48,967 nucleotides of DNA from a virus: positions 1-48,967 of IMG/VR virus record IMGVR_UViG_3300042888_002518, one strand, 5' to 3'. The notes beneath the pieces are model-generated. The model worked only from the letters and a program-made list of their open reading frames with translations. It ran no database searches and had not been told where the DNA came from. Both the position numbers and the translations under genes were made by a program. Every line of letters begins with the position of its first letter. Positions within the stretch are counted from its first letter, which is position 1. Shown here in pieces: positions 53 through 23,134 of this stretch.

Positions 53-146
53 TGGTACTCCCTACAGGATTTGAACCTGTGACGCTCTCTAATCTGGAGA
101 CGATGCTGGATATAAGCCAGGTGTTTTACCGCTAAACTAAGGGAGC
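53..146 (-). tRNA. tRNA with long variable arm, apparent anticodon UAU
   Basis: Acceptor GCTCCCT/AGGGAGT (G-U at the end), D stem GTTT/AAAC, T arm ACAGG-TTCAAAT-CCTGT, A73 and an encoded CCA are clear. The anticodon stem CTGG/CCAG closes the loop CTTATAT, giving UAU (isoleucine AUA codon). Unusually, a variable region of about 24 nt can form a six-pair stem, as in class II tRNAs (Leu, Ser, Tyr), which do not use this anticodon. The amino-acid identity is therefore uncertain. Confidence 0.75.
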
Positions 147-147
147 G

Positions 148-804
148 TTAAATCTTGAAAGTAAATGCAAAAGATATCGTGTTATCTTCACGCCAATCTT
201 TTGTGTACAAGTCTTGAATTGAAAAGCTAGTTTTCTCACTTAATTTATATTTGACTTCTGCTCTGTTCTGAATGAAGGTTCTAGAACCTTGTTCAATCAT
301 GAACTGATTGCTTGCAGTAAGCTTTTTGTTTAGTTTATGACTAATCCAAATACTTTCACGGACTACTACATCGCTATATCCGCCTGTGCCGTGCTTGTAG
401 CCAACACTAAGTTCGTTTGATATCTTAGTTTTATCATTCTTTATAATTCTAAAACCGTGCCCAATGCTATAGACTGCTTGATCTTCTGAGAATGTTCTTG
501 GATCATGTCTATATCTAATACCTGCTTGAACATAGTGCTTAGCATGAATGTCTTGATTGACCTTAGCAAATGCGTTAATCTGTTCTCTAGAAGTTACACC
601 GTTAGCACTCTTATAAAGAATATCACTTTCAAATGAGTATTCTCTAGGGCCCGTGTCAGTAACATGCTTGAACGCACCAGTAAGCACAATGTTATCGTCA
701 TTGATAACAGTGCCGCCTAATGAACCTGTTGTTTCTCTCTCAACCTGTGCATATGCAGGGAAAGAAAATAATAATGCTGCTGATAGTATAAGTGTTCTAA
801 ACAT
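148..804 (-). CDS. Predicted outer-membrane beta-barrel protein (DUF481-like)
   Basis: The 218-residue product starts with a clear signal peptide (about residues 1-20, ending PAYAQ). The rest is made of alternating, amphipathic short strands with many aromatic and charged residues, and it ends FAFTFKI, as expected of a small outer-membrane barrel. The pattern recalls the DUF481/YdiY group of Gram-negative barrels, but that family call is tentative. I chose the ATG at 804 because it begins the signal peptide and has a TTGGAG binding site. A late-type box GCTAAATA lies further upstream. It sits between tRNA genes, which is unusual. It may alter the host surface, for example by masking receptors; that is inference. 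Confidence 0.65.
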   Translation of the reverse strand: MFRTLILSAALLFSFPAYAQVERETTGSLGGTVINDDNIVLTGAFKHVTDTGPREYSFESDILYKSANGVTSREQINAFAKVNQDIHAKHYVQAGIRYRHDPRTFSEDQAVYSIGHGFRIIKNDKTKISNELSVGYKHGTGGYSDVVVRESIWISHKLNKKLTASNQFMIEQGSRTFIQNRAEVKYKLSEKTSFSIQDLYTKDWREDNTISFAFTFKI

Positions 805-821
805 GTGAATCTCCAAACTAC

Positions 822-829
822 TATTTAGC
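822..829 (-). promoter_or_regulatory. Late promoter box GCTAAATA
   Basis: Box upstream of the barrel protein gene. Here a normal leader with a TTGGAG ribosome binding site separates box and ATG. Confidence 0.5.
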
Positions 830-833
830 AATT

Positions 834-909
834 TGGTGCTCTATACAGGAGTCGAACCTGTTATCTCCGGGTTACGAATCCGGCGCATCGCCAGCAATGC
901 TTATAGAGC
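834..909 (-). tRNA. tRNA-Thr (CGU)
   Basis: Cloverleaf with acceptor GCTCTAT/ATAGAGC, D stem GCAT/ATGC, anticodon loop TTCGTAA, T arm ACAGG/CCTGT, A73 and encoded CCA. The last pair of the anticodon stem is an A-C mismatch. It reads the threonine codon ACG. Confidence 0.9.
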
Positions 910-911
910 AT

Positions 912-996
912 TGGTGCCCCGAGAGGGACTCGAACCCCCACTCCTTTCGGAAGCGGATTTTGAATCCGCCGCGTCTACCGGTTCCGCCATCGGGGC
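912..996 (-). tRNA. tRNA-Leu (CAA)
   Basis: Class II tRNA with acceptor GCCCCGA/TCGGGGC, anticodon stem GCGGA/TCCGC with loop TTCAAAA, long variable arm, A73 and encoded CCA. It reads UUG. Confidence 0.93.
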
Positions 997-1084
997 AAAT
1001 TGGTATCGGTTCAGCCTAGCGCATAGTTTGGTGTGCCTTGAGAACACTCCGGGGCCCCGCGTTTCTCTTCCGATTTCTGAATTT

Positions 1085-1169
1085 TGGTGCGGATGAAGGG
1101 ACTCGAACCCCCACACCTTACGATACAGGTACCTAAAACCTGGGCGTCTACCAATTCCGCCACATCCGC
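1085..1169 (-). tRNA. tRNA-Leu (UAG)
   Basis: Class II tRNA with acceptor GCGGATG/CATCCGC, anticodon stem CAGGT/ACCTG with loop TTTAGGT, long variable arm, A73 and encoded CCA. It reads CUA. Confidence 0.93.
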
Positions 1170-1326
1170 AAAGTAGTATAAATGTATTTACTCGCCGTAA
1201 CTAGTGTCTCAAATTTAGTTACCGATACTAACTCAATAGTACTGCTACGGACATCAGGTACACTCCTGTTTGGTTTGAGAATGAAACAGGGTCACATATG
1301 GTCACCGTACACACACGAGTAAAATC

Positions 1327-1402
1327 TGGTGCTCCCAGACGGGCTTGAACCGCCGACACCCTGATCTTCAATCAGGTGCTCTACCAACTGAGCTACAGGA
1401 GC
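1327..1402 (-). tRNA. tRNA-Phe (GAA)
   Basis: Acceptor GCTCCTG/TGGGAGC, D stem GCTC/GAGC, anticodon stem CCTGA/TCAGG with loop TTGAAGA, A73 and encoded CCA. It is the first tRNA downstream of the early-type promoter just upstream. Confidence 0.93.
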
Positions 1403-1417
1403 ATTATCTATAATCTT

Positions 1418-1446
1418 ACTATAACAAACAACGATACCGTTGTCAA
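1418..1446 (-). promoter_or_regulatory. Early (sigma-70-like) promoter before tRNA-Phe
   Basis: TTGACA (1441-1446), a 17-nt spacer, then TATAGT (1418-1423) on the minus strand, preceded by GG. It points into the downstream part of the tRNA array. Confidence 0.8.
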
Positions 1447-1456
1447 CCTTTATATT

Positions 1457-1532
1457 TGGTGGAGCCTAGCGGGGTCGAACCGCTGACCTTTTGTCTGCCA
1501 GACAAACGCTCTACCAACTGAGCTAAGGCCCC
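1457..1532 (-). tRNA. tRNA-Ala (GGC)
   Basis: Acceptor GGGGCCT/AGGCTCC, D stem GCTC/GAGC, anticodon stem TTTGT/ACAAA with loop CTGGCAG, A73 and encoded CCA. The body closely resembles bacterial tRNA-Ala(GGC), including GGTCAGCGGTTCGA. Confidence 0.93.
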
Positions 1533-1596
1533 AAATCTCTCGGGGCCTGCACAGCCCCTTCCCCCGTAACAATTGTGCAGTACTACAGGGAGTACT

Positions 1597-1604
1597 CATA
1601 AATA
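1597..1604 (+). promoter_or_regulatory. Late promoter box CATAAATA
   Basis: Plus-strand box four bases before the ATG at 1609. It indicates a near-leaderless start for the oxygenase gene. Confidence 0.65.
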
Positions 1605-1608
1605 CTGT

Positions 1609-2232
1609 ATGCTTTTTGACCCTAGACAGATTAAACACCTAACTGAATCAGTGGATGCTAATCTAATTAAGACCTTATTAAATTCTGCAAAAGAAGCAAA
1701 GTCTGCTCAAGCCACCGTAGGAAGCGTAGTCAATGACAGTTATGTTGCTGTTCATGATCCAGCCATTTGCACTGCTAACTTCGTAGACTATAAGAACTTC
1801 GCTAATAGTGTCACGCAGCTTGTAAAACGCTGTGAGGAGCTAGTAGAGCATCATTATAGTGTAGAGTGTGTCACATACTCTATCGATTTTCTTCACTATC
1901 CTGATGGAACTCATTATTGGCCCCACATTGACGGGCAATATGTTGACGGAACATCTGTTCGCCGTAGTGATGTAAACCGAGATATAACCTGCGTAGTTTA
2001 TCTCAATGATGATTATCAAGGAGGCGAGGTATATTTTCCGTTCTTTGACAGTGAAAAGAGACCTAATGCAGGAGACATTCTTATGTATCCTGGCAGTTGG
2101 CAATATCTTCATGGTGTCAAGAAAGTTCAAGGCGTTCGTTATGCGATTGTAATTTGGTTCCATACAAGCCCTGAAATGTATCAGGACGAGGATATCAAAC
2201 ATCCTCACATATTAAAAACACTTACTCGGTAA
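1609..2232 (+). CDS. 2OG-Fe(II) oxygenase (prolyl 4-hydroxylase-like)
   Basis: This 207-residue protein carries the iron-binding H-x-D pair (H106, D108, in WPHIDG), the distal histidine H168 in YLHGV and the 2-oxoglutarate-binding R177. The strands YLNDDYQGGEVYF and GDILMYPGS are typical of P4H-type dioxygenases, which hydroxylate proteins or small molecules using 2-oxoglutarate and oxygen. I set the start at the ATG at 1609 rather than the in-frame ATG 36 nt upstream, because a CATAAATA late box ends four bases before it. It is one of few plus-strand genes and lies inside the minus-strand tRNA array. Its substrate is unknown. It is one of four dioxygenase-like genes in the window. Confidence 0.88.
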   Translation: MLFDPRQIKHLTESVDANLIKTLLNSAKEAKSAQATVGSVVNDSYVAVHDPAICTANFVDYKNFANSVTQLVKRCEELVEHHYSVECVTYSIDFLHYPDGTHYWPHIDGQYVDGTSVRRSDVNRDITCVVYLNDDYQGGEVYFPFFDSEKRPNAGDILMYPGSWQYLHGVKKVQGVRYAIVIWFHTSPEMYQDEDIKHPHILKTLTR

Positions 2233-2309
2233 TGGTCGGGGTAGCCGGATTCGAACCGACGACCACTTGTCCCCCAGACAAGTGCGCTACCAGGCTGCGC
2301 TATACCCCG
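2233..2309 (-). tRNA. tRNA-Pro (GGG)
   Basis: Acceptor CGGGGTA/TACCCCG, anticodon stem CTTGT/ACAAG with loop CTGGGGG, T arm GTCGG/CCGGC, A73 and encoded CCA. Its 3' end abuts the stop codon of the plus-strand oxygenase gene. Confidence 0.92.
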
Positions 2310-2316
2310 TTGTGCT

Positions 2317-2404
2317 TGGCGGAGTCGGTGAGATTCGAACTCACGGTACCTTTCGGTACGCTACCTTTCCAAGATAGTCTAATCGGCCACTCTAGCACGA
2401 CTCC
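2317..2404 (-). tRNA. tRNA-Ser (GGA)
   Basis: Class II tRNA with acceptor GGAGTCG/CGACTCC, anticodon stem CTATC/GGTAG with loop TTGGAAA, a long variable arm, G73 (normal for serine) and encoded CCA. Confidence 0.92.
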
Positions 2405-2542
2405 GTAATATGGCGCGCCCGCTTATTTTCTATACTGGGGCTACTTTCGGAAGGTAGTCCATGCATGCGGACGCATAAGAATGGAGCCAGCGGTAACGGT
2501 ATGTTCGTCACTATAATAGTGGGTATCACTCGCCGGCATAAG

Positions 2543-2734
2543 TTAAAGTCCGAGAAACTGCATTACTAGCTTGAAGGGCCAGACATGTTCCCAGAGAAAG
2601 TGTTCTAGTGGATAGCTGATAGTTACGCCAATCCAAAATCTATAATCAGTAATCAAATTTGAACACGAATTCATACACCGAACTAATAGTCCAGTCTTCT
2701 TATCTTCGTGATAATGAGGTTCTTGCAATGGCAT
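2543..2734 (-). CDS. Small protein with hydrophobic C-terminal half, unknown function
   Basis: Sixty-three residues starting MPLQEPHYHEDKK. The first half is polar with two cysteines; the second half is hydrophobic and tryptophan-rich (YRFWIGVTISYP, HFLWEHVWPF) and may be a membrane segment. The ATG at 2734 is preceded by AAAGGATA at good spacing; a longer reading would run into the tRNA-Val gene. No family recognised. Confidence 0.6.
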   Translation of the reverse strand: MPLQEPHYHEDKKTGLLVRCMNSCSNLITDYRFWIGVTISYPLEHFLWEHVWPFKLVMQFLGL

Positions 2735-2750
2735 AAAGTATCCTTTAAAA

Positions 2751-2825
2751 TGGTACACCCTATCTGGTTTGAACAGATGACCTTCGCTGAGTCAAAGCGA
2801 TGCTCTACCGCTGAGCTAAGGGTGC
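2751..2825 (-). tRNA. tRNA-Val (GAC)
   Basis: Acceptor GCACCCT/AGGGTGT (G-U end pair), D stem GCTC/GAGC, anticodon stem TCGCT/AGCGA with loop TTGACTC, A73 and encoded CCA. Confidence 0.92.
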
Positions 2826-2831
2826 ATGAAT

Positions 2832-2908
2832 TGGCTCTCTTAGTAGGACTTGAACCTACAGCAACATGGTTAACAGCCATGCTCCCCTACCGTCAGGGAC
2901 CTAAGAGA
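2832..2908 (-). tRNA. tRNA-Asn (GUU)
   Basis: Acceptor TCTCTTA/TAAGAGA, anticodon stem CATGG/CCATG with loop CTGTTAA, T arm GTAGG/CCTAC, G73 and encoded CCA. Confidence 0.92.
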
Positions 2909-2915
2909 ATAAAAC

Positions 2916-2993
2916 TGGGGTGAAAGACGGGATTTGAACCCGCGACATTCGGTACCACAAACCGACGCTCTAACCAACTGAGCTACAATCACC
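2916..2993 (-). tRNA. tRNA-His (GUG)
   Basis: Has the extra 5' G(-1) opposite C73 that marks histidine tRNAs, an anticodon stem TCGGT/ACCGA with loop TTGTGGT, T arm GCGGG/CCCGT and encoded CCA. The acceptor stem has two adjacent U-U oppositions at pairs 5 and 6, so it is less stable than usual. Confidence 0.88.
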
Positions 2994-2998
2994 ATAAT

Positions 2999-3072
2999 TG
3001 GCATACGCTGTAGGAGTCGAACCCACGCTAACTGGGTTGGAACCAGTCGTGCTACCGTAACACTTAGCGTAC
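2999..3072 (-). tRNA. tRNA-Trp (CCA)
   Basis: Acceptor GTACGCT/AGCGTAT, anticodon stem ACTGG/CCAGT with loop TTCCAAC, T arm TGGG/CCTA type, G73 and encoded CCA. Confidence 0.9.
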
Positions 3073-3079
3073 ATGAAAT

Positions 3080-3156
3080 TGGTGCCCGCGGAAGGATTCG
3101 AACCTCCGACCCTCAGATTCGTAATCTGATGCTCTATCCAGCTGAGCTACGCGGGC
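3080..3156 (-). tRNA. tRNA-Arg (ACG)
   Basis: Acceptor GCCCGCG/CGCGGGC, anticodon stem TCAGA/TCTGA with loop TTACGAA, A73 and encoded CCA. A34 would need deamination to inosine by host TadA to read CGU, CGC and CGA. Confidence 0.92.
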
Positions 3157-3163
3157 ATTAACT

Positions 3164-3240
3164 TGGTGGACCCTGAGGGATTCGAACCCCCGACATCCTG
3201 TTTCGAAGACAGGCGCTCTATCCGGCTGAACTAAGGATCC
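3164..3240 (-). tRNA. tRNA-Arg (UCG)
   Basis: Acceptor GGATCCT/AGGGTCC (one U-G), anticodon stem CCTGT/ACAGG with loop CTTCGAA, T arm CGGGG/CCCTC type, A73 and encoded CCA. It reads CGA and CGG. Confidence 0.92.
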
Positions 3241-3246
3241 GTGAAA

Positions 3247-3322
3247 TGGTGCCGCTTGCAGGATTTGAACCCGCCACCTACGGTTTACTAAACCGTTGCT
3301 CTACCAAATGAGCTAAAGCGGC
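3247..3322 (-). tRNA. tRNA-Thr (AGU)
   Basis: Acceptor GCCGCTT/AAGCGGC, D stem GCTC/GAGC, anticodon stem ACGGT/ACCGT with loop TTAGTAA, A73 and encoded CCA. An A34 threonine anticodon is rare in bacteria, which normally use GGU and UGU. Confidence 0.9.
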
Positions 3323-3330
3323 ATTAAGTT

Positions 3331-3404
3331 TGGATGCCCCCCGAGGATTCGAACCTCGATAGCTAGTACCAAAAACTAGCGTCTTACCTTTAGACGAAGG
3401 GGCA
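3331..3404 (-). tRNA. tRNA-Gln (UUG)
   Basis: Acceptor TGCCCCT/GGGGGCA with the U1-A72 pair typical of glutamine tRNAs, anticodon stem CTAGT/ACTAG with loop TTTTGGT, and encoded CCA. Position 73 is U instead of the usual G. Confidence 0.9.
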
Positions 3405-3452
3405 ATGTAACTTGTATAATATATATGCTTTGCAGCATCGTGTAAACTATTT

Positions 3453-3528
3453 TGGATGCCCGACTAGGGCTCGAACCTAGAACCTACTGAGTCAGAGTCA
3501 GTCGATCTACCAATTGATCTATCGGGCA
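3453..3528 (-). tRNA. tRNA-Gln (CUG)
   Basis: Acceptor TGCCCGA/TCGGGCA with U1-A72, anticodon stem ACTGA/TCAGT with loop CTCTGAC, U73 and encoded CCA. Together with its UUG neighbour it covers both glutamine codons. Confidence 0.9.
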
Positions 3529-4392: not shown

Positions 4393-4908
4393 CTACATTG
4401 CAATTTTACCGATTGCGTTGATAACTGCTGCAATCTTGCCAACTGCCTGTAGTTCAGTAACAGTCATGCCTTCCTTCTTAAGAACATCATAGTGATTCTT
4501 AACGCAGAAGTGGCACTTACCGACGATACTTGCAGCAAGCGCATACATTTCAAACTTCTTCTTTGAAACGCCGCCGTGAGTAGCATAAGCATTCATACGC
4601 AAGCCAGGCGGAAGACCCTTCAAATCAGGATCCTCAGTCATTTCAACAAATGGATAATAAACATTGTTCATGCCCATAAGTGCTGCGGCAGTCTTTGCTG
4701 CTTCACGCTCATCAGTACCCATCAACGGACCATTCATTGAAATCTCAAATGCAAGGTCGCCGTTACCTGCTGCTACTGCTGCTGCAAATGCACAAGCATG
4801 TGCATCTACCTCATCAAGTCCTGAACGATTCATTACAGCATCAAGATTAAGCTTGATATCTTTTGAATGATCAGGGATTGATTCCTTTACCTGATCTACC
4901 CAACTCAT
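4393..4908 (-). CDS. ahpD: Alkylhydroperoxidase AhpD-like protein
   Basis: The 171-residue protein matches AhpD in length and in its C-terminal carboxymuconolactone-decarboxylase-like domain. The redox motif is C132-H-F-C135 with H139, preceded by E120, the proton-relay set of AhpD. In Mycobacterium AhpD reduces AhpC using electrons from dihydrolipoamide. The start codon overlaps the ahpC stop by four bases (ATGA), so the two are translationally coupled. The pair should form a complete peroxide-reducing system fed by host lipoyl enzymes. Having both partners in a phage is unusual. Confidence 0.88.
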   Translation of the reverse strand: MSWVDQVKESIPDHSKDIKLNLDAVMNRSGLDEVDAHACAFAAAVAAGNGDLAFEISMNGPLMGTDEREAAKTAAALMGMNNVYYPFVEMTEDPDLKGLPPGLRMNAYATHGGVSKKKFEMYALAASIVGKCHFCVKNHYDVLKKEGMTVTELQAVGKIAAVINAIGKIAM

Positions 4909-5450
4909 AGAGTGTCACCGCCGATTGGACGACTGCATGGGCAAAGTTCACCGGTCTGCAATGCATCAAGAATGCGAAGTGTTTCTTCTGGGCTACGACC
5001 AACATCAAGGTTGTTAACAGTAACATGCTGAATCACATTGTCAGGGTCAACAATGAATGTTGCACGAAGGGCTGCTCCGGCTGGACCGTAGAAGATACCC
5101 AACTGACCTGCAAGCGAAAGGTCATCACGAGCAACATCAGCAAACATCCATGATGAAGTCTTCTTTAAATCTTCGTGAGCATTCTTCCATGCAATCTTAC
5201 AGAATTCATTATCGGTTGAACCAATAAGCAAAACTGCATCACGGTCAGCAAAGTCGCTATTCAACTTATCGTAAGCAACGATTTCTGTTGGACATACAAA
5301 AGTAAAGTCCTTAGGATAGAATACGATTACCTTCCACTTGCCTTCAAAACTATTTTCTGTGATGGTTTCAAACGCACCATCGATATCTAATGCACCTGGC
5401 TTTACACCGATTACTGCAAAAGATTCAATCTTATCACTAACTGTCTTCAT
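4905..5450 (-). CDS. ahpC: Alkyl hydroperoxide reductase AhpC (2-Cys peroxiredoxin)
   Basis: This 181-residue peroxiredoxin has the peroxidatic cysteine C53 in the signature DFTFVCPTE and a C-terminal resolving cysteine in GELCPCSRP (C170, with an extra C172). It reduces hydrogen peroxide and organic peroxides in the cytoplasm. The second cysteine two residues on is not usual for AhpC and may change its recycling. The ATG has an AAAGGAG site, and ahpD follows with a four-base overlap. Likely purpose: protecting phage DNA synthesis and the iron enzymes encoded nearby (ribonucleotide reductase, oxygenases) from oxidative stress; that is inference. Confidence 0.93.
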   Translation of the reverse strand: MKTVSDKIESFAVIGVKPGALDIDGAFETITENSFEGKWKVIVFYPKDFTFVCPTEIVAYDKLNSDFADRDAVLLIGSTDNEFCKIAWKNAHEDLKKTSSWMFADVARDDLSLAGQLGIFYGPAGAALRATFIVDPDNVIQHVTVNNLDVGRSPEETLRILDALQTGELCPCSRPIGGDTL

Positions 5451-6487: not shown

Positions 6488-6892
6488 TTAAAAATCTGCA
6501 TTATGGTGTTGCCAAATCTTATCAGTGCCACCTAGATGGCCCCAATCGCTATCAACAACCATTTTGCTACTAATACCGCCTCTTGGCCTAAACTTGATTT
6601 CAAGTCGCATTCTAAATGGAGTGTATGCTTCCATTAAATGCTTGTACATAACATCAATTGCCCGTTCATAACTAATGATAGTATCTCTATATTGTAGCAG
6701 GTATTCTTTCAAACTCTTTAGTTCAATCGTCTTTTCATTGCCATGAAACCAGATGCGAATATGCCCAAAGTCAGGTTGATTCTTTACTCCAAGAAAAGTA
6801 AATTCTGGAATATCAATCTGTTGTTCGTATCCGTTTGCTGCATTTGGCAAACTAGCTAATGTGTTTTCTATATTCTTCCAAAGTTTTGGCAT
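6488..6892 (-). CDS. QueF-like protein lacking the catalytic cysteine
   Basis: The 134-residue sequence follows the NADPH-dependent 7-cyano-7-deazaguanine reductase (QueF) pattern: NQPDFG (D41), IELKSLKEYL (57-66), a Glu in the position of the substrate-binding Glu (E76) and FRPRGGIS (101-108). QueF makes preQ1 for queuosine. However, the nucleophilic cysteine of the usual FTxLCPxTGQPDF is missing: here the stretch is FTFLGVKNQPDF, with Gly35 in its place and one residue fewer. It should not form the thioimide intermediate. It may bind a 7-deazaguanine for DNA or tRNA modification, or do something new. Its start overlaps the upstream stop (TAATG). Confidence 0.75.
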   Translation of the reverse strand: MPKLWKNIENTLASLPNAANGYEQQIDIPEFTFLGVKNQPDFGHIRIWFHGNEKTIELKSLKEYLLQYRDTIISYERAIDVMYKHLMEAYTPFRMRLEIKFRPRGGISSKMVVDSDWGHLGGTDKIWQHHNADF

Positions 6893-7572
6893 TAACTATA
6901 TTCCTTTCTTAAAATCTCAAATGTCTCTTCCCAAGTTGAAACATTATATTGTTTAATTGCATGTTGTGCAATAGTATAATCATTTCCACCAGGATATATC
7001 TTATCTCCAAAGAACACAAACGGAGATATGTATTCTACTATCTGGCTCTTATCTTTTCCTACAGGATGAATATCTATTCCGGTTTCGCCTGCGACTGTGG
7101 CCTCTAGATTTGGAAAATTTTCGCGGATAAGGAATGCGTAAAAATTTCGCTCATCTACACGAGTATCGTATTCCAAATATTCAGAACGATCATTAATGTC
7201 TGCATTGCGTCCAATGACACTGAAATTGCAAGAACCGGGGCGCATTTCAATATGATTTCCGGTCCGCTTTGGAAAGGAACTCAACTGCAATAGGCTTTCA
7301 AGATATTCATGTTGTTCGATAGTCAATGCAAAGTCATTGACATACTGTAGCTCTCCGCTCACATAGAGAGCGTTTCCGCAGCAGCTATACACACCTTTGA
7401 CAGTGTTGCATATCTCTTTGCCAAGCTGCTCTAGCGTCTTCTCGTAGTCGCTTCCGGACACAAGATATACATTATTGTTTTGGCAGAATGAAAGGAACCA
7501 TTCCCCAAACGATGGAAAGATACGCTGTCTACTGAGTGTCAGCGTACCGTCTACATCAAATACATAATTCAT
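6892..7572 (-). CDS. Phosphomannomutase, eukaryotic-type HAD family
   Basis: The 226 residues fit the HAD-type phosphomannomutase family, best known from eukaryotes (PMM1/PMM2), not the usual bacterial alpha-D-phosphohexomutase. Visible motifs: nucleophile site FDVDGTLT (D6, D8), VSGSDYEKTLEQLG, the substrate loop FSVIGRNAD, and FFGDKIYPGGNDY near the C-terminus. It would interconvert mannose-6-phosphate and mannose-1-phosphate for GDP-mannose synthesis. Slightly shorter than typical (about 245). Coupled by TAATG overlaps to both neighbours. It may supply sugars for glycosylation together with the GT4 enzyme encoded at 10653-11639; that link is inference. Confidence 0.8.
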   Translation of the reverse strand: MNYVFDVDGTLTLSRQRIFPSFGEWFLSFCQNNNVYLVSGSDYEKTLEQLGKEICNTVKGVYSCCGNALYVSGELQYVNDFALTIEQHEYLESLLQLSSFPKRTGNHIEMRPGSCNFSVIGRNADINDRSEYLEYDTRVDERNFYAFLIRENFPNLEATVAGETGIDIHPVGKDKSQIVEYISPFVFFGDKIYPGGNDYTIAQHAIKQYNVSTWEETFEILRKEYS

Positions 7573-13553: not shown

Positions 13554-15290
13554 TTATTTAAGGACAAATGTAGCTAAGAAAATACTAGTACTACTGGTCT
13601 CTGCTAATGCTCTGGTTATGTCAACATTCATTGTTGCCGGATCAATAGTTTGATCTATTTGGAAAAATAGTATCCAAGGTGATTCAAGCGAAACTGTACT
13701 ACTTGTCGCATAGGTTTTATATCTAACCATTCGAATGGTTTCACCTTCATCTAACGGAACAGTAGGTTTGTTAACGGATAATAATCCAGATGCACTATCT
13801 AAATTCATAAATTCGCTGTATAGCGTATCATAATTTGGCTCTTCAAAAGAAAATGTCCAAACAAAGCTTTCATCAGGAAACAATGTAGCATAAGATGAAG
13901 TGTCGATTATAGTATTCAAGTCTAAATTAAAGACATCATTACCAACACTAAATGCTCCTAAATAGAGATCCAAAGAACTTGCTTGCACATCTTTTGTACC
14001 GATTAAGTGAACTAGTTTATTTTGGTTTGCACTAAATTTATCGTCATCGAATAAAATTGCATCTTTAGTAGAGGTGTCAATAATTTTAGTGAGTAACAAA
14101 GGATAAGGTAGTTCATCTGCAAACAAAGCCGCAAGCTGTCCAGCAGCACCCGATACATACCCAGCAGCAATGGATGTACCTGAACTAATCATATATCCAC
14201 CAGCTTTATCGGCAAGCGCAACCTTGTCGCCCGGTGCAAAAACATCAAGTCGTTGACCGTAGTTAGTAGTTAAGCCGGAATCAGTAGGTGCAATATTGTT
14301 GAAGCCTGCCGGAATGTCATACCGATCAGTTGCACCAACAGTCAATACCTCTGGCATACCTGCAGGAGTAATAGTGTTAACATCGACCCCTGAGTTACCA
14401 GCAGCACAGACTACCGTTACTCCTGCATCAAGCAATTGTCTAAACTTTGACTCTAGCCAGCCATTCTCATCTACTGCCCAAGAAGCATTGACAATTCGGG
14501 TAATATTTGGATTAGCCACTGTTTCTGCAATAATAAGATCGATCAAGTTACCGACATCTAAGAAACTACAATAACCAGTTGAATCTGCAATCTTACAACT
14601 TAGCACCTTAACATTTTTGGCTATACCAACATTTGTACCAAAAATTGCAGATGCTATTGTAGTACCGTGACCAATCTCATCATCAAAATTCGCAAATATA
14701 GGGGCTTTCCAAAAATCAGCATGTTCAGTACCTGCAAATTCTGGGTGATTCCAGGCGACACCGGAGTCAATTAAATATATTTCAGGAATACTTTTAATTA
14801 CTAGATTGTCATAGTATTCAAACCCATTGAGTAGGGGACGATAGGTGCTAGCAACCCGAATTCTTGCCCATTGACCATCTGCACTTAAAGGATCGATACC
14901 TACTTGATCTGCATTTACTCCATTAATCGAAGATGTTGCATGAAATACTACATGTTCTGCGGCAACGGGATCAAGACTATCCACTAAATCAAATAGTGCT
15001 AATCCTTGACTAGTTCCAATATGATAGAATCCGCCGCCCAAATCTGCGATTAGTGTTATCAATTCACTGACTTGAGAGTTTGCAATATCACCCTTCATAA
15101 TAAATTCTACGGTGTCTGTAGTTCTACCTTCAAGGCGAGCAAACGATTCTGCACCTGCACTGTTCTTTGCAACCTTTAGCTTTCCCCAAGGAATTTCAAC
15201 TGAGGTTGCGCCATCAGTGACCGCAAGTCCGGTCTTTGCAGCAAAGGCTGCGTAATTTTCGTGGGTATCAAATGTAACAATTACGGACAT
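13554..15290 (-). CDS. Subtilisin-like serine protease (S8 family)
   Basis: A 578-residue protein with a complete catalytic triad: D175 (YLIDSGVAWNHPEF), H208 (DEIGHGTTIAS) and S373 (SSGTSIAAG), plus the oxyanion N299 (AAGNSG). About 160 residues precede the protease domain and about 170 follow, the latter beta-rich. There is no signal peptide, so it may be a virion component (for example a tail protein that cuts host-surface proteins) or a maturation protease. The ATG has TTGGAG upstream and a late-type CTAAATA box further away. It is divergent from the next gene, whose own late box lies nearby. Confidence 0.92.
   Translation of the reverse strand: MSVIVTFDTHENYAAFAAKTGLAVTDGATSVEIPWGKLKVAKNSAGAESFARLEGRTTDTVEFIMKGDIANSQVSELITLIADLGGGFYHIGTSQGLALFDLVDSLDPVAAEHVVFHATSSINGVNADQVGIDPLSADGQWARIRVASTYRPLLNGFEYYDNLVIKSIPEIYLIDSGVAWNHPEFAGTEHADFWKAPIFANFDDEIGHGTTIASAIFGTNVGIAKNVKVLSCKIADSTGYCSFLDVGNLIDLIIAETVANPNITRIVNASWAVDENGWLESKFRQLLDAGVTVVCAAGNSGVDVNTITPAGMPEVLTVGATDRYDIPAGFNNIAPTDSGLTTNYGQRLDVFAPGDKVALADKAGGYMISSGTSIAAGYVSGAAGQLAALFADELPYPLLLTKIIDTSTKDAILFDDDKFSANQNKLVHLIGTKDVQASSLDLYLGAFSVGNDVFNLDLNTIIDTSSYATLFPDESFVWTFSFEEPNYDTLYSEFMNLDSASGLLSVNKPTVPLDEGETIRMVRYKTYATSSTVSLESPWILFFQIDQTIDPATMNVDITRALAETSSTSIFLATFVLK
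13555..13562 (-). promoter_or_regulatory. Late promoter box CTTAAATA
   Basis: Four bases before the ATG at 13550; it overlaps the protease stop codon. Confidence 0.6.
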
Positions 15291-15346: not shown

Positions 15347-16135
15347 ATGATTAAAGCACATGTTATAAGCGATCTAAATTTATGCGACAACGAATGGGCG
15401 GATCCAATTGACGAAACCATGCCAGAGTGTGACATAGTATTTGTTAACGGTAATAACGGAGTATTCCAAAGATCAGTACTATTAGCCGAAACTATATGCA
15501 AGAAATATCCTGATATCCAAGTAATATATCTAAACGGTAAGCGTGAGTTACTTCGTCAAAAAGAAAAAACCATAATAAATGACGGAATGACCGCAAGAAA
15601 ATTTTATTCTGAACTTTGGCCAAAAAATTTACATTTTGCGGTTGAGAAACCAATTCAGCTTACTATTAAAGAAATTAAACTTGATATCCTATGTATGCAC
15701 GGCTATCCATTTATACCAAATGATGATATAGATAATAAGATTTGGAAAAACACAAGTTGGTACAGGTATGTGAATCATGGATTAACAACCGATCCTAATT
15801 ATAACAGACCAAAAGGAATAAGTGATGCATCAAGAGGAGAGTTTCCTATATGGTCCACGCCTGACCTATGCCGAATTGAACATGATAGAGAATACGAAAT
15901 TGTAAAAAAGTGGAGTGATTGCAGAGAAGAAGGCGTAATTAAGATTTTGGCTACTAGCATAAGTCCCATCAATGATAACAGTCTGATTGGGGTAGAGTAT
16001 GCAATGTATCCAAATATATCCCCTGATCATTGGGTCGTTGGTAGCTACCAAACTGATACGGTTTTTTCTGATTATCACTTGCACGGAAATCCGGGGCGCG
16101 GCTTATCTGCTAGAACTAGAACTTTCACTATATAA
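15347..16135 (+). CDS. Degenerate metallophosphoesterase-like protein
   Basis: The 262 residues start KAHVISDLNL and have FVNGNNG, YLNGKREL and MHGYPF where calcineurin-type phosphoesterases have SDLH, GDI, GNHE and HGH. The fold is probably the same, but most metal-ligand histidines and aspartates have been replaced, so catalysis is doubtful. It lies in plus orientation and its 3' end overlaps the convergent asparagine-synthetase-like gene by 33 bases. It could be a regulatory or binding derivative, or an unrelated fold. Confidence 0.7.
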   Translation: MIKAHVISDLNLCDNEWADPIDETMPECDIVFVNGNNGVFQRSVLLAETICKKYPDIQVIYLNGKRELLRQKEKTIINDGMTARKFYSELWPKNLHFAVEKPIQLTIKEIKLDILCMHGYPFIPNDDIDNKIWKNTSWYRYVNHGLTTDPNYNRPKGISDASRGEFPIWSTPDLCRIEHDREYEIVKKWSDCREEGVIKILATSISPINDNSLIGVEYAMYPNISPDHWVVGSYQTDTVFSDYHLHGNPGRGLSARTRTFTI

Positions 16136-17086
16136 CTTATCTATCGCACTAGATTGATTCTCAGTTAAAACTAATACGCCGCAAGCTGTTCCAAATTTCT
16201 TTTGTAGGGGTACCCTAAACATCTTTTCAAATGCCCAACCATCATTAAACTTCTCTGCAAAATAATCTTTTATCAACTCAAACCCGGTGTACTTGTTGTC
16301 TTGCGGAATTATATCAAATCCATGATTACTGTACCCTGCGACTTTACCGGCATACCTAATAGCATTAGTATCATCCATTATTCTGGGATATCTAGTATTC
16401 CATTCTACATCATGTTCTGGAGTTAGTAACGCTATTGACCAACAAAGAGCAGGATCATATCCTAAAAAATTACCAATTACAGGAAATTGATTTTGGTTAC
16501 TATATTCAATATAGTTCGATTGTGCTGCGCTAGGAACCGGTCCCCATTCAGAATGATTTCTAGCAAATGCAGTTCCGCCGCAGCATATACCCGTATATCC
16601 TAAATTTCGTAGCATATCAAACATTTTGTAGTGTGTAATGAAATGAGGGCTCGTGCATTTGTACTTTGTTCCAATTTCAATACAATCTCTAGTAAGAAAT
16701 TGAATGACATTTAGCTTCAAAATTATCGGTTCAATACTGTTTTTATGGCAATACTCTAGTGCAACAGAAACATCATGTTGATTAAGATTGTTTTCGAACT
16801 CCATAATAGCAACATCAAATTTTAACCCTGCTTCTTGCCAACACTGAATCATTGCTTGGCTATCAATGCCTCCGCTAAGACATAATACTGGGTTATCGCT
16901 TAGTTGGGCTGCGGCGGCTTTAGCAGCACTACTTCGGTACCATGATGTACTTTCACGGTCTAACTTTAGTGATGCAAAAAAATCTGCATCCAAATCAACA
17001 GTGTATGTTATGCACTCAGCAAAGGGATCTAATATATCTGTAAAAGTTAGCCAGCGATTTCTAAATGGCTCAAATTGGAATGACAC
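16103..17086 (-). CDS. Asparagine-synthetase-like ATP pyrophosphatase
   Basis: A 327-residue protein with the PP-loop SGGIDS (71-76) that binds ATP in the synthetase domain of asparagine synthetase B, beta-lactam synthetase and lasso-peptide cyclases, and a later CCGGTAF motif. It has no N-terminal glutaminase domain, so it must use free ammonia or catalyse another amide-forming step. It starts with GTG, overlapping the upstream oxygenase gene by 17 bases, and ends with a run of serines. It may activate a carboxyl group on a protein, peptide or nucleotide; the substrate is unknown. Confidence 0.78.
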   Translation of the reverse strand: MSFQFEPFRNRWLTFTDILDPFAECITYTVDLDADFFASLKLDRESTSWYRSSAAKAAAAQLSDNPVLCLSGGIDSQAMIQCWQEAGLKFDVAIMEFENNLNQHDVSVALEYCHKNSIEPIILKLNVIQFLTRDCIEIGTKYKCTSPHFITHYKMFDMLRNLGYTGICCGGTAFARNHSEWGPVPSAAQSNYIEYSNQNQFPVIGNFLGYDPALCWSIALLTPEHDVEWNTRYPRIMDDTNAIRYAGKVAGYSNHGFDIIPQDNKYTGFELIKDYFAEKFNDGWAFEKMFRVPLQKKFGTACGVLVLTENQSSAIDKLYSESSSSSR

Positions 17087-17715: not shown

Positions 17716-18606
17716 TCAAATCATACCTATTTTATATTTGATGTACTCTGCAATCTGTCCTGCAACATCTACTTGACAGTATTTTTCAAAACCTTCGAAA
17801 CCTGGGGCAGAATTAGCTTCGCATATCTTGTAGCCATCTTTGTCAAAGAGCAAGTCGATACCGGCTATGTCTAACCCGCAGATTCTAGCAGCTTCTCTAG
17901 CTAGATAATCAATTTCACTGTTGACTTCAAATGGTTCGCCTCGTCCGCCTGCTGATATGTTAGCTCTAAAGTCGCCTTCAGGTGCATGTCTTTTCATAGC
18001 ACCGATAACTTTTCCACCTACTACAAACACTCGTAAGTCTTCTCCGGGCTTAGCATCAATGTATTCTTGAACTAGTAGAAGCTTTGGCGTATCCAAATTA
18101 CCAACGAACTCCATCATCTTCTTAAATGATGTTTTGTTCTCGCATAGATAGATACCTTCGCCATAGCTACCACTGATAACTTTAACAACACAGGGCCATC
18201 CTATCATGTTGTCAACAATATCTACCTCTACAGGGAAACGCACCAGCATAGTATTTGGAATAGGTAGTCCATGACTAGCTAGTAGCTGATGAGACCGCAT
18301 TTTATCCTTTGCAATTTCTACGCTAAGTGAGGAATTGATGCAGCGTATGCTTTCTTCTTCAAATTGTCTAACTATTGCGGTGATGAATTCAGTCGTGCCG
18401 GAACCCGTTCTTGTTAGTACGAGCTTTGGCATGTCAAACTCTTGTCCATTGTATTTGACACCATGACCGGTGCCTTTTCCTACAATAACATCAAAGTTAT
18501 CTGGATGGTAAATGGTTGCAGGAATGCCTAAGTCAGAAAGACTTGTTACGAGACGACGATTTTCATATTCGCTCTCGTCCTTTTTTGACAAAATTAGTAT
18601 TGACAT
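17716..18606 (-). CDS. RimK-like ATP-grasp ligase
   Basis: A 296-residue ATP-grasp enzyme of the RimK type: central KVISGSYGEGIYLCE (ATP lid), the GEDLRVFVVGGKVIGAM strand, and the metal-binding C-terminal IDLLFDKDGYKICEANSAPG. RimK adds glutamates to the C-terminus of ribosomal protein S6; relatives join amino acids or amines to peptides and cofactors. Length and motif order match RimK (about 300). A late-type box (GCTAAATA) lies upstream, with an AAGGG site before the ATG. Possible targets are host ribosomes or a phage protein. Confidence 0.9.
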   Translation of the reverse strand: MSILILSKKDESEYENRRLVTSLSDLGIPATIYHPDNFDVIVGKGTGHGVKYNGQEFDMPKLVLTRTGSGTTEFITAIVRQFEEESIRCINSSLSVEIAKDKMRSHQLLASHGLPIPNTMLVRFPVEVDIVDNMIGWPCVVKVISGSYGEGIYLCENKTSFKKMMEFVGNLDTPKLLLVQEYIDAKPGEDLRVFVVGGKVIGAMKRHAPEGDFRANISAGGRGEPFEVNSEIDYLAREAARICGLDIAGIDLLFDKDGYKICEANSAPGFEGFEKYCQVDVAGQIAEYIKYKIGMI

Positions 18607-18702: not shown

Positions 18703-19500
18703 TTATTTAACGTTAACGATACCCTTGAAGTCATAAGGAACGATAATGGTAGAAACCTTACCTTCCTTGACTGCTTCGGCGATAGTCACGAGAGCAGTTG
18801 CTTCCATGTACTTCGTTGCTCCAGCGTTAGCATTAAGAGCAGCAATACGCTCGGCTTCAAGCTTTGCAGTACGAACTTCTACCTGCTTCTGCTTTTCAGC
18901 ATTTTGTGCTTCAACCAAAAGGTTAGCTGATGCTACGATATTCGCAGCAGGCTTAACCTGACGAACAAGAACCTGTGAGATCGAAATCGCACCATCTAGC
19001 TTTTCAGCAGCGAGACTGGCGACGATTTCCTGACGAACAAGCTGCTCAATTTCAGCACGATTGTCTGCCATCTTCAACGACTCGTACTTACGAGCAACCT
19101 TATATGCAGCATTACGACCCAATTGACGAATGTAGTTATACATCAAAAGAGTATCGCCTTCTTCGGTATCAGCATGGAAACCGCGATTCTTTTCTACATA
19201 GATTTCAGCAGCACTAGTTGGGTTGATCGAATAGATAACTGCCATATCAAAGTCAGCAACAGTTGAGTTGTCGCTAGCAAGCGGAGTCAAGTCAGCAATA
19301 TCAACCTGAACATCTTTGGTCGGGAAAGTAAGAACTTCACCGAACAATGTCTGATTGATAGAACCAGGCTGTAGTTCAGTGGTTTCAATAGTCTTGTCGA
19401 ACGAGCGTCGGACGCCGACTTCACCTGTTTCAATACGAGTACACGCAGCAGTCGTGGCCATCAAACCAGCGAGAACGGCAATCTTAGCAATACGATTCAT
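18703..19500 (-). CDS. SPFH/prohibitin-domain lipoprotein
   Basis: A 265-residue protein with a lipoprotein signal peptide (lipobox ATTAAC, C20), then an SPFH/Band 7 domain starting near RIETGEVGVRR, and a long alanine- and glutamate-rich helix near the C-terminus (AEKQKQVEVRTAKLEAERI). Such proteins form ring-shaped scaffolds on membranes and regulate proteases such as FtsH. With a lipid anchor it would sit on the periplasmic side. It has a good AAGGAAG site and its own early promoter inside the upstream small gene. Possible roles: controlling FtsH or excluding other phages; both are inference. Confidence 0.9.
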   Translation of the reverse strand: MNRIAKIAVLAGLMATTAACTRIETGEVGVRRSFDKTIETTELQPGSINQTLFGEVLTFPTKDVQVDIADLTPLASDNSTVADFDMAVIYSINPTSAAEIYVEKNRGFHADTEEGDTLLMYNYIRQLGRNAAYKVARKYESLKMADNRAEIEQLVRQEIVASLAAEKLDGAISISQVLVRQVKPAANIVASANLLVEAQNAEKQKQVEVRTAKLEAERIAALNANAGATKYMEATALVTIAEAVKEGKVSTIIVPYDFKGIVNVK

Positions 19501-22002: not shown

Positions 22003-22031
22003 GTTATAGCAAAATGGGTAGCCTTTGTCAA
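22003..22031 (-). promoter_or_regulatory. Early (sigma-70-like) promoter
   Basis: TTGACA (22026-22031), 17-nt spacer, TATAAC (22003-22008), preceded by GG and followed by TAATATATAG. The -35 box covers the end of metK. Confidence 0.82.
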
Positions 22032-23134
22032 CCGTTTTTTTCAAAAAGGTTGATTTTTTCCCATGGCAGATAGTCTTTACCAAAGTGACCGTAGTTAGTA
22101 GTAGAAGTGTAGATTGGTCTGAACAGATCGAAGCGTTCAATAATTCCCTTAGGAGTTAAATCAACATTCTTGATAACCCAATCAGTGAGTTCTCTGCTGT
22201 CTCTATCACTTTCAACATACACTGACATTGGTTGTTCGAGACCGATAGCATAGCTTAGCTGTACCGTAGCCCAGTCTGCTTTGCCACTAGCAACTATATT
22301 CTTTGCTAGATAACGAGCCATATAAGCTGATGAGCGGTCTACCTTAGTTGGATCTTTTCCAGAGAATGCGCCACCGCCATGCGGTGCAGACCCGCCGTAT
22401 GTGTCAACAATGATCTTACGACCAGTTAATCCAGTATCTCCGTCAGGTCCACCGATAACAAATCTACCTGTAGGATTAATTAAGAATTTAGTGTCTTTAT
22501 CAATTAGGTCTTTTGGAAGTAACTCTCTGATAAAGGTTTCAATTGATCCACGCAATTCATTAATTTCGATATCAGGGCTATGTTGAGTTGAGCAAACAAT
22601 CTTATCAATTCTTTTAACGGTGTTGTCATCGTTATATTCTACAGTAACTTGACTTTTTGAGTCAGGACCAAGCCAAGGAGCTTCTCCTGTTTTGCGAACA
22701 ATTGACAGTGCTTCGACAATTTTGTGACTGTAATAGAGTGCTGAAGGCATGTGATTATCAGTTTCGTTACATGCATAACCAAACATCAATCCTTGATCTC
22801 CGGCACCAAAATTATCAGTTCCCAAAGCAATATCAGGGCTTTGTCCGTGCATTAAATTAGCGATCTTAACATCTTGCCAATGAAAGCCTTCTTGCTCATA
22901 CCCAATAGTTTTAATAACTTTTCGCACAAGATAGTCAACATCTAGTGAATCTAATTCACCCTTATATTCTCCTGCAACAACAACCTGATTAGTAGTAACT
23001 AATGTTTCACATGCACATCGGTATGTTGGATCTTGGGCGCTCATTAATAAGTCTAAAACGCTATCGCTGATAGCATCAGCTACTTTATCAGGGTGTCCTT
23101 CCGACACTGATTCACTAGTAAATAAATATGACAT
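22028..23134 (-). CDS. metK: S-adenosylmethionine synthetase (MetK)
   Basis: A 368-residue enzyme with the family signatures: FTSESVSEGHPDKVAD at the N-terminus, GAGDQGLMFGYA, and GGGAFSGKDPTKVDRS. It makes S-adenosylmethionine from methionine and ATP in the cytoplasm. It is full length (bacterial MetK about 380) with all visible motifs intact. It stands alone under a perfect TTGACA-17-TATAAT promoter, so strong early expression is expected. A phage could need it for DNA or cap-like methylation, polyamines, or to offset SAM loss. No methyltransferase gene is visible in this window. Confidence 0.97.
   Translation of the reverse strand: MSYLFTSESVSEGHPDKVADAISDSVLDLLMSAQDPTYRCACETLVTTNQVVVAGEYKGELDSLDVDYLVRKVIKTIGYEQEGFHWQDVKIANLMHGQSPDIALGTDNFGAGDQGLMFGYACNETDNHMPSALYYSHKIVEALSIVRKTGEAPWLGPDSKSQVTVEYNDDNTVKRIDKIVCSTQHSPDIEINELRGSIETFIRELLPKDLIDKDTKFLINPTGRFVIGGPDGDTGLTGRKIIVDTYGGSAPHGGGAFSGKDPTKVDRSSAYMARYLAKNIVASGKADWATVQLSYAIGLEQPMSVYVESDRDSRELTDWVIKNVDLTPKGIIERFDLFRPIYTSTTNYGHFGKDYLPWEKINLFEKNG

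Follow-up and report, generated by a model that had tools for sequence, protein, structure and literature searches.

What does a QueF-like protein do once the cysteine that carries the QueF thioimide is gone? The question is raised by one gene of the IMG/VR virus record IMGVR_UViG_3300042888_002518, a stretch of 48,967 bp with 17 tRNAs that was analyzed over its whole length and is referred to here as the window. The open reading frame, at 6488..6892 on the minus strand, begins with ATG and encodes a 134-aa protein which, on the evidence of Pfam, alignment and AlphaFold2 (AF2) modelling, is a Cys-free QueF-like protein of the tunnelling fold (T-fold); the protein and its homologues are designated X below, and “X” in operon formulas denotes the Cys-free QueF-like gene. 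A reading made from the sequence alone had described a QueF fold devoid of its nucleophile and suggested a non-reductive role, in handling preQ0 or preQ1 or in acting on DNA bases.

The window encodes a QueF-like protein devoid of cysteine

QueF was the only Pfam family matched by X (PF14489, E=1.4e-18), and the score of X against the NCBIfam equivalog model for preQ(1) synthase (TIGR03139), 77.2 bits, fell below the 86.9-bit cut-off. In a residue-by-residue alignment to Bacillus subtilis QueF (PDB 4fgc/4f8b), the site of the thioimide Cys55 is occupied by Gly35 (codon 6788..6790, minus strand), a Gly in all 49 sampled members of the family described below, and the loop before QPDF is shorter by one residue (..LCPKTGQPDF.. 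in B. subtilis QueF, ..LGVK-NQPDF.. in X). The cysteine count of the whole protein is zero. Both changes had been called in the sequence-only reading, together with the claim that X is without thioimide (nitrile reductase) chemistry, and the lack of Cys anywhere in the protein supports that claim.

The QueF motifs that had been listed as kept (QPDF, ELKSLKEYL, E76 and PRGGI, the last extending to PRGGIS) are all present in the alignment, and their coordinates are given here on the minus strand. Asp41 in QPDF (codon 6770..6772), invariant in the 49 members, aligns with Asp62, the proton donor of QueF. The ELKSLK motif (residues 57-62, 6707..6724) is a signature of QueF associated with NADPH binding, a role that is predicted for X, and has E57, L58, K59, S60 and K62 invariant and L61 nearly so in the same members. 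SYER (74-77, 6662..6673), also invariant, stands in place of QueF FHED, with B. subtilis His96 replaced by Tyr75 and Glu97, the holder of the 2-amino-4-oxo-pyrimidine ring in QueF, retained as Glu76. Within PRGG (103-106, 6575..6586), R104, G105 and G106 are invariant in the 49 members, and a DSDW motif (114-117, 6542..6553), more than 90% conserved among them and absent from canonical QueF, is typical of the Cys-free clade. The suggested non-reductive role finds no favor in this pattern: the residues of the NADPH motif and the proton donor are invariant, which argues for a reductase.

An AF2 model built from a 49-sequence alignment (pLDDT 91, pTM 0.86), which supersedes a mediocre model from 11 sequences (pLDDT 71), has its best PDB matches in QueF (4fgc/4f8b/5udg; E down to 2.8e-9, for 4fgc; TM up to 0.77), followed by GTP cyclohydrolase I. 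Given this model and QueF as its best match, the predicted T-fold of X is solid; the QueF fold proposed from the sequence is borne out, and no unrelated fold was predicted.

The closest known system is type II QueF, the unimodular NADPH-dependent 7-cyano-7-deazaguanine reductase of B. subtilis (TIGR03139; 4f8b/4fgc/5udg), to which X shows about 30-35% identity and TM 0.7-0.77. X shares with it the tunnelling fold, the QPDF Asp, the ring-holding Glu, E-x-K-S-x-K and PRGGIS; unlike it, X has neither Cys55 nor the full-length loop, carries YE-R for HE-D and a new DSDW...GG tail, and in its window copy stays below the TIGR03139 cut-off and lacks a queC/D/E-folE-tgt context, the family occurring in methionine operons with SAM riboswitches whereas type II QueF occurs with queC/D/E. 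The archaeal QueF-Like archaeosine synthase (PDB 5jyx), another T-fold structural match, acts on preQ0-tRNA and also uses a thioimide Cys, which is missing in X. GTP cyclohydrolase I (FolE) shares the tunnelling fold at 10-17% identity in the structural matches, but X has no Pfam FolE match. The phage QueFs of 7-deazaguanine clusters (Streptococcus phage Dp-1, Halovirus HCTV-1, Cellulophaga phage phi38:2) have a homologous fold and motifs and are phage-borne like X, but they keep the Cys and adjoin queC/D/E, folE or dpdA, neither of which is true of X. Because the Cys is kept in all 10 annotated phage QueFs examined (Dp-1, KVP40, HCTV-1, phi38:2 and others), the X family is distinct from the QueFs of DNA-modification clusters; with its different neighbors, X was accordingly rejected as an ordinary phage 7-deazaguanine gene.

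Cys-free homologues form a clade in phages and bacteria

Close relatives of X were found at 36 distinct loci in IMG/VR, and at least 80 were kept from GTDB genomes. The Cys is absent from all 116 homologous loci (36 viral and 80 bacterial), which also have in common the signature E-x-T-F-x-G...QPDF / ELKS-x-K-x-Y / SYER; RGG is present in nearly all of them and followed in most by a DSDW-type motif. Between members, dN is 0.09-0.22, and as pairwise dS is mostly saturated, dN alone is reported and no omega is claimed. With the Cys missing throughout and dN low, the loss is fixed and X is not a decaying QueF. Sequencing error and gene decay were likewise ruled out as its cause, all homologues being Cys-free and purifying selection strong.

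In a tree with 12 canonical QueFs, all 49 sampled Cys-free sequences are set apart by a branch of length 2.5 (support 97/96; clade recovered in 98% of bootstrap trees), with long branches on some canonical QueF rows and a program warning of joins between these. The window protein falls together with those of two phage records (382 kb and 519 kb), with sequences from Pelagibacterales contigs adjoining this group, and the clade as a whole occurs in phages and several bacterial phyla. As judged from their sequences, these proteins are a distinct, Cys-free, widespread and uncharacterized family derived from QueF.

Many bacterial homologues lie in methionine operons, often behind SAM riboswitches

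Genes within 300 bp on the same strand were considered adjacent, and the names metE, metY, metH, metF, thyX, folA and thyA in the X loci were assigned by reading translated sequences and by homology between loci. A methionine or thymidylate gene is adjacent to X in 42 of 80 bacterial and 21 of 36 viral loci, compared with 24 of 562 other ORFs of the same bacterial X loci, a control that is conservative because it is drawn from those very loci. The loci are not independent of each other; at least six different arrangements are. No such neighbor lies within 2 kb of X in 38 of the 80 bacterial loci.

In Bacteroidota, X lies between the halves of a split methionine synthase (metH-N_X_metH-C; 17-20 loci), followed in the same operon by metF at four of these loci (L163, L174, L191, L212). 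Chitinophagaceae carry it between a cystathionine-gamma-synthase-type gene and homoserine dehydrogenase (CGS_X_hom; 6), Syntrophorhabdus-type deltas behind thyX (thyX_X; 9), and a Methylococcaceae MAG contig (L181) in the order metK_X_metH_ahcY. The order on Pelagibacterales contigs is metY_X_metE, an arrangement read on 5 contigs. Among the viruses, where ahcY, metK or folA is the adjoining gene in the 21 loci, freshwater phages have metK_X_ahcY or X_ahcY (19), and a 519-kb phage record has X_folA_thyA. The neighbors share a theme: their products either form or consume methylene-tetrahydrofolate (methylene-THF) or methyl-THF, or drive the SAM cycle. A literature search yielded no paper linking QueF with metH, methylene-THF reductase (MTHFR) or SAM riboswitches in this sense.

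Two features of individual contigs were recorded along the way. Three contigs of the Bdellovibrionales MAG F1-140 (L138, L139, L140) have the SAR11-type order metY_X_metE, probably through binning contamination, and two X-carrying phage contigs contain Betaproteobacteria-type permuted tmRNA genes (L101:18374-18711, L121:6647-7139), a hint at betaproteobacterial hosts.

The position between MetH halves (17 loci with both), sometimes with metF in the operon, would also fit a partner protein of methionine synthases, one that binds folate or NADPH without catalysis and serves as chaperone, channelling factor or regulator. We consider such a role quite improbable, because X also occurs without MetH, next to CGS/hom, metY/metE, metK/ahcY and thyX, and its invariant catalytic-type residues D41, E76, K59, K62 and R104 fit an enzyme better.

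A SAM riboswitch was found upstream in 22 of the 29 bacterial X loci scanned, 19 of them SAM-I (RF00162) and 3 SAM-V (RF01826), and at one locus (L190) X is the first gene behind it. These 22 loci are members of a SAM-riboswitch methionine regulon, to which the window and the phage loci scanned do not belong, no SAM riboswitch having been found in them. Independently of these data, SAR11 metY has been described as controlled by SAM-V (PMC5069961). Taken together, gene neighbors and riboswitches place X in methionine/one-carbon metabolism, and the link of the family to the methionine/SAM pathway is strong. The role with preQ0, preQ1 or DNA bases that had been suggested from the sequence is not what they point to.

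The window copy of X and its surroundings

Around the window copy, there is no methionine or thymidylate neighbor within 15 kb, and ahcY, metH, metE, metF, thyX, folA and thyA were not detected in the window. A 368-aa S-adenosylmethionine synthetase (MetK) is encoded at 22028..23134 on the minus strand (Pfam N, M and C domains, E down to 9e-57; 626 bits to a MetK homologue), 15 kb from X and on the same strand. Relatives of this MetK lie directly beside X in other phages, and we infer that MetK and X of the window belong to one functional unit. The immediate neighbors of X are a phosphomannomutase-like gene (phosphomannomutase/HAD-like, 6892-7572, minus strand), a gene for a 221-aa protein with a weak phage-family match, and two encoding SGNH proteins; these were not seen beside X in the other loci read, so that the pathway assignment of the window copy rests on the family.

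Further genes on the minus strand include an AhpC-type peroxiredoxin neighboring a carboxymuconolactone-decarboxylase/AhpD-like gene (4393-5450), a subtilase-type protease (13554-15290), a RimK-like ATP-grasp ligase (17716-18606) and an SPFH/Band-7 protein (18703-19500). The 17 tRNA genes form an array at 53-3528 on the same strand, including tRNA-Asn(GTT) and tRNA-His(GTG), both with queuosine-type anticodons. A diverged QueC-like PP-loop ATPase at 16103-17086 (minus strand) stays below the Pfam QueC cut-off. As had been stated from the sequence, no other queuosine gene was detected in the window: there is no member of the FolE, QueD or TGT families and no significant QueC.

Queuosine and 7-deazaguanine pathways

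If X were an alternative preQ0 reductase or another queuosine enzyme, it would replace canonical QueF without a Cys in organisms devoid of the canonical enzyme. Several counts agree with this: of 37 X genomes, 36 encode QueA, an enzyme dependent on preQ1 in tRNA; X is the sole QueF homologue in 29 of the 37 (genomes may be incomplete); and four of these 29, all Syntrophorhabdus-type deltas (G007, G008, G013, G016), combine a strong match to QueC with the absence of canonical QueF. In addition, TIGR03139 matches all 49 sampled Cys-free proteins, and the best bacterial relative (E=6.7e-29) probably passes its cut-off. However, a second QueF-family copy coexists with X in 8 of the 37 genomes, and QueC is found in every one of the eight; those second copies whose full sequence was read are canonical QueFs, located beside queC/queE in two genomes. 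X itself is found in SAM-riboswitch methionine operons and not with queC/D/E, and most genomes with X as the only homologue are without QueC, although these may salvage preQ1 or queuine. The phage protein contains no Cys whatever, and to our knowledge the thioimide step cannot be bypassed in QueF. The counts being mixed, coexistence and operon context led us to drop replacement of QueF as the main reading, and we give it only a small chance, although X may have a queuosine role in some lineages.

A second possibility concerns the large phages, in which X could act in 7-deazaguanine DNA modification, for example on 7-carboxy-7-deazaguanine (CDG) made by FolE, QueD and QueE. A comparable role is predicted for DpdL, a predicted CDG decarboxylase. 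The sequence-only reading had proposed a search for such genes in the rest of the genome. FolE, QueD and QueE do occur in the 382-, 210- and 519-kb relatives, together with a DSGG[FY]Q TGT-like protein, whereas QueC-like proteins there are only weak; the FolE/QueD/QueE/TGT-like genes of the 210-kb phage are within 12 kb of X. Proximity is nevertheless the exception, FolE/QueD/QueE being within 10 kb of X in just 1 of 36 viral loci and more than 90 kb away in the 382-kb record, and in the 210-kb record it is metK and ahcY that directly flank X. Bacterial X genes, moreover, are in methionine operons without such genes. The FolE/QueD/QueE/TGT-like genes of the large phages are probably a separate DNA- or nucleotide-modification system, and we regard action of X in it as very improbable; the bacterial gene contexts also make an identity of X with DpdL unlikely. 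Of the overall interpretation made from the sequence, the exclusion of a nitrile reductase therefore stands, whereas a 7-deazaguanine protein is, as far as the evidence goes, not what X appears to be.

The modification genes of these phages show features of their own. The TGT-like proteins, of about 535-577 aa (L064:10051-11655 in the 210-kb, L090:9910-11640 in the 382-kb and L099:112-1779 in the 519-kb record), have DSGG[FY]Q and FD[CA]ASP motifs, match no Pfam family and no PHROG convincingly, and adjoin FolE, QueE and glycosyltransferases. It is possible that they constitute a new DpdA subfamily with sugar hypermodification; comparing their profiles with those of known DpdA gave no significant match, and TGT PF01702 and phrog_887 proved to be poor probes that missed annotated phage DpdA-type proteins. 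Diverged QueC-like PP-loop ATPases with a CxxC-type C-terminus, whose scores equal or barely exceed the Pfam QueC cut-off, are encoded at 271439-272101 in the 382-kb, 206222-206845 in the 210-kb and 377961-378683 in the 519-kb record. At another locus (L014:3746-4594), a QueE-like radical SAM protein has a Cys motif that departs from CxxxCxxC (GCNFRCAGFGMPRG...TTGCD); its closest isolate relative, at 50% identity, is in Synechococcus phage BUCT-ZZ01, where queE, queD, folE, a phosphoribosyltransferase and a DpdA2-type protein are clustered.

A proposed reductase of folate-bound one-carbon units

The methionine context can be joined to the chemistry retained by the fold. In T-fold enzymes of the QueF group, a 2-amino-4-oxo-pyrimidine ring is held by a Glu, and QueF uses its E-x-K-S-x-K/RGG region for NADPH. 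In the methionine/thymidylate cycle, folate would be the only compound with a 2-amino-4-oxo ring. MTHFR links methylene-THF, used by ThyX and ThyA, with methyl-THF, used by MetH and MetE, and its gene metF typically has neighbors of the kind seen around X. Given the ring-holding Glu, folate as the ring metabolite, and the position of MTHFR between the products of the neighboring genes, we propose that X reduces a folate-bound one-carbon iminium. X would then be a repurposed, flavin-free NAD(P)H-dependent T-fold reductase of the methionine/SAM-folate cycle, most likely converting methylene-THF to methyl-THF, a reading to which we assign an even chance of being right.

Under this proposal, folate would sit in the tunnelling-fold site with its 2-amino-4-oxo-pterin ring gripped by Glu76, NADPH would occupy the ELKSLK/PRGG side, and the iminium or imine would be protonated or polarized by Asp41. 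The loss of Cys would remove only the nitrile-activation step, leaving the reduction of C=N or C=N+ possible; hydride would pass straight to carbon without a covalent thioimide, so that no Cys would be needed. In the most likely reaction, 5,10-methylene-THF would be turned into 5-methyl-THF, from which MetH and MetE take their methyl group, and in phages X may feed methyl groups into a SAM cycle reinforced by phage MetK and AHCY.

MetF (PF02219) and the flavin-free mycobacterial MTHFR share with X this proposed reaction and the typical neighbors metH, metE and ahcY. MetF is a TIM barrel and X a T-fold protein without a PF02219 match; any MTHFR function of X would be a matter of analogy and not of descent. 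The flavin-free MTHFR type is itself not covered by PF02219 (PMC7857596). Of 39 X genomes, 28 have metF (PF02219); the 11 without it comprise, among others, all three Crocinitomix genomes searched and another three with metH_X_metH (genomes may be incomplete). It was undetected in 6 of 11 genomes searched with X between metH halves (G011, G012, G017, G020, G022, G023). Its presence in 28 of 39, and within the X operon at four loci, means that X is no simple MetF replacement.

Loss of the thioimide step would also leave to a QueF derivative the chemistry of dihydrofolate reductase (DHFR), which acts on a pterin C=N bond, and X might accordingly be a dihydrofolate (or 5-methyl-dihydrofolate/quinonoid) reductase whose task beside ThyX, MetH and MetE would be to maintain folate in its reduced form. 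Consistent with this, folA was undetected in all five thyX_X delta genomes searched and in 12 of 37 X genomes overall (genomes may be incomplete). However, folA is present in the other 25 and adjoins X in one phage, ThyX makes THF such that recycling there requires no DHFR, and the pairing with metE, metH and metY and the SAM riboswitches point to methyl supply; we therefore hold a DHFR role to be unlikely. With folA missing in 12 of 37 genomes yet adjoining X in one phage, no single missing step explains all genomes, and strict replacement of either MetF or FolA was rejected for want of clean complementarity in the phyletic counts. Given these tallies (metF, folA, QueA/QueC), confidence in the exact reaction of X is moderate.

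Returning to the reduction of methylene-THF, we tentatively extend it to a further claim, which we rate as possible but distinctly short of even: X may represent a new structural class of MTHFR, a flavin-free tunnelling-fold enzyme of about 15 kDa that arose from QueF by Cys loss, is widespread among Bacteroidota, deltaproteobacterial lineages, Chloroflexota and SAR11-type bacteria, and belongs to a SAM-cycle module carried by large aquatic phages.

Implications

Automatic annotation probably misnames many X proteins as preQ(1) synthase, and if our reading is correct, queuosine-pathway reconstructions that count X as QueF would need correction. X would then be a previously unrecognized folate/methionine enzyme, possibly the missing MTHFR of bacteria that have metH and lack metF, and the loss of one residue would have turned a covalent nitrile reductase into a simple imine/iminium reductase. 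On the same condition, large phages would turn out to possess a module for SAM regeneration consisting of metK, X and ahcY.
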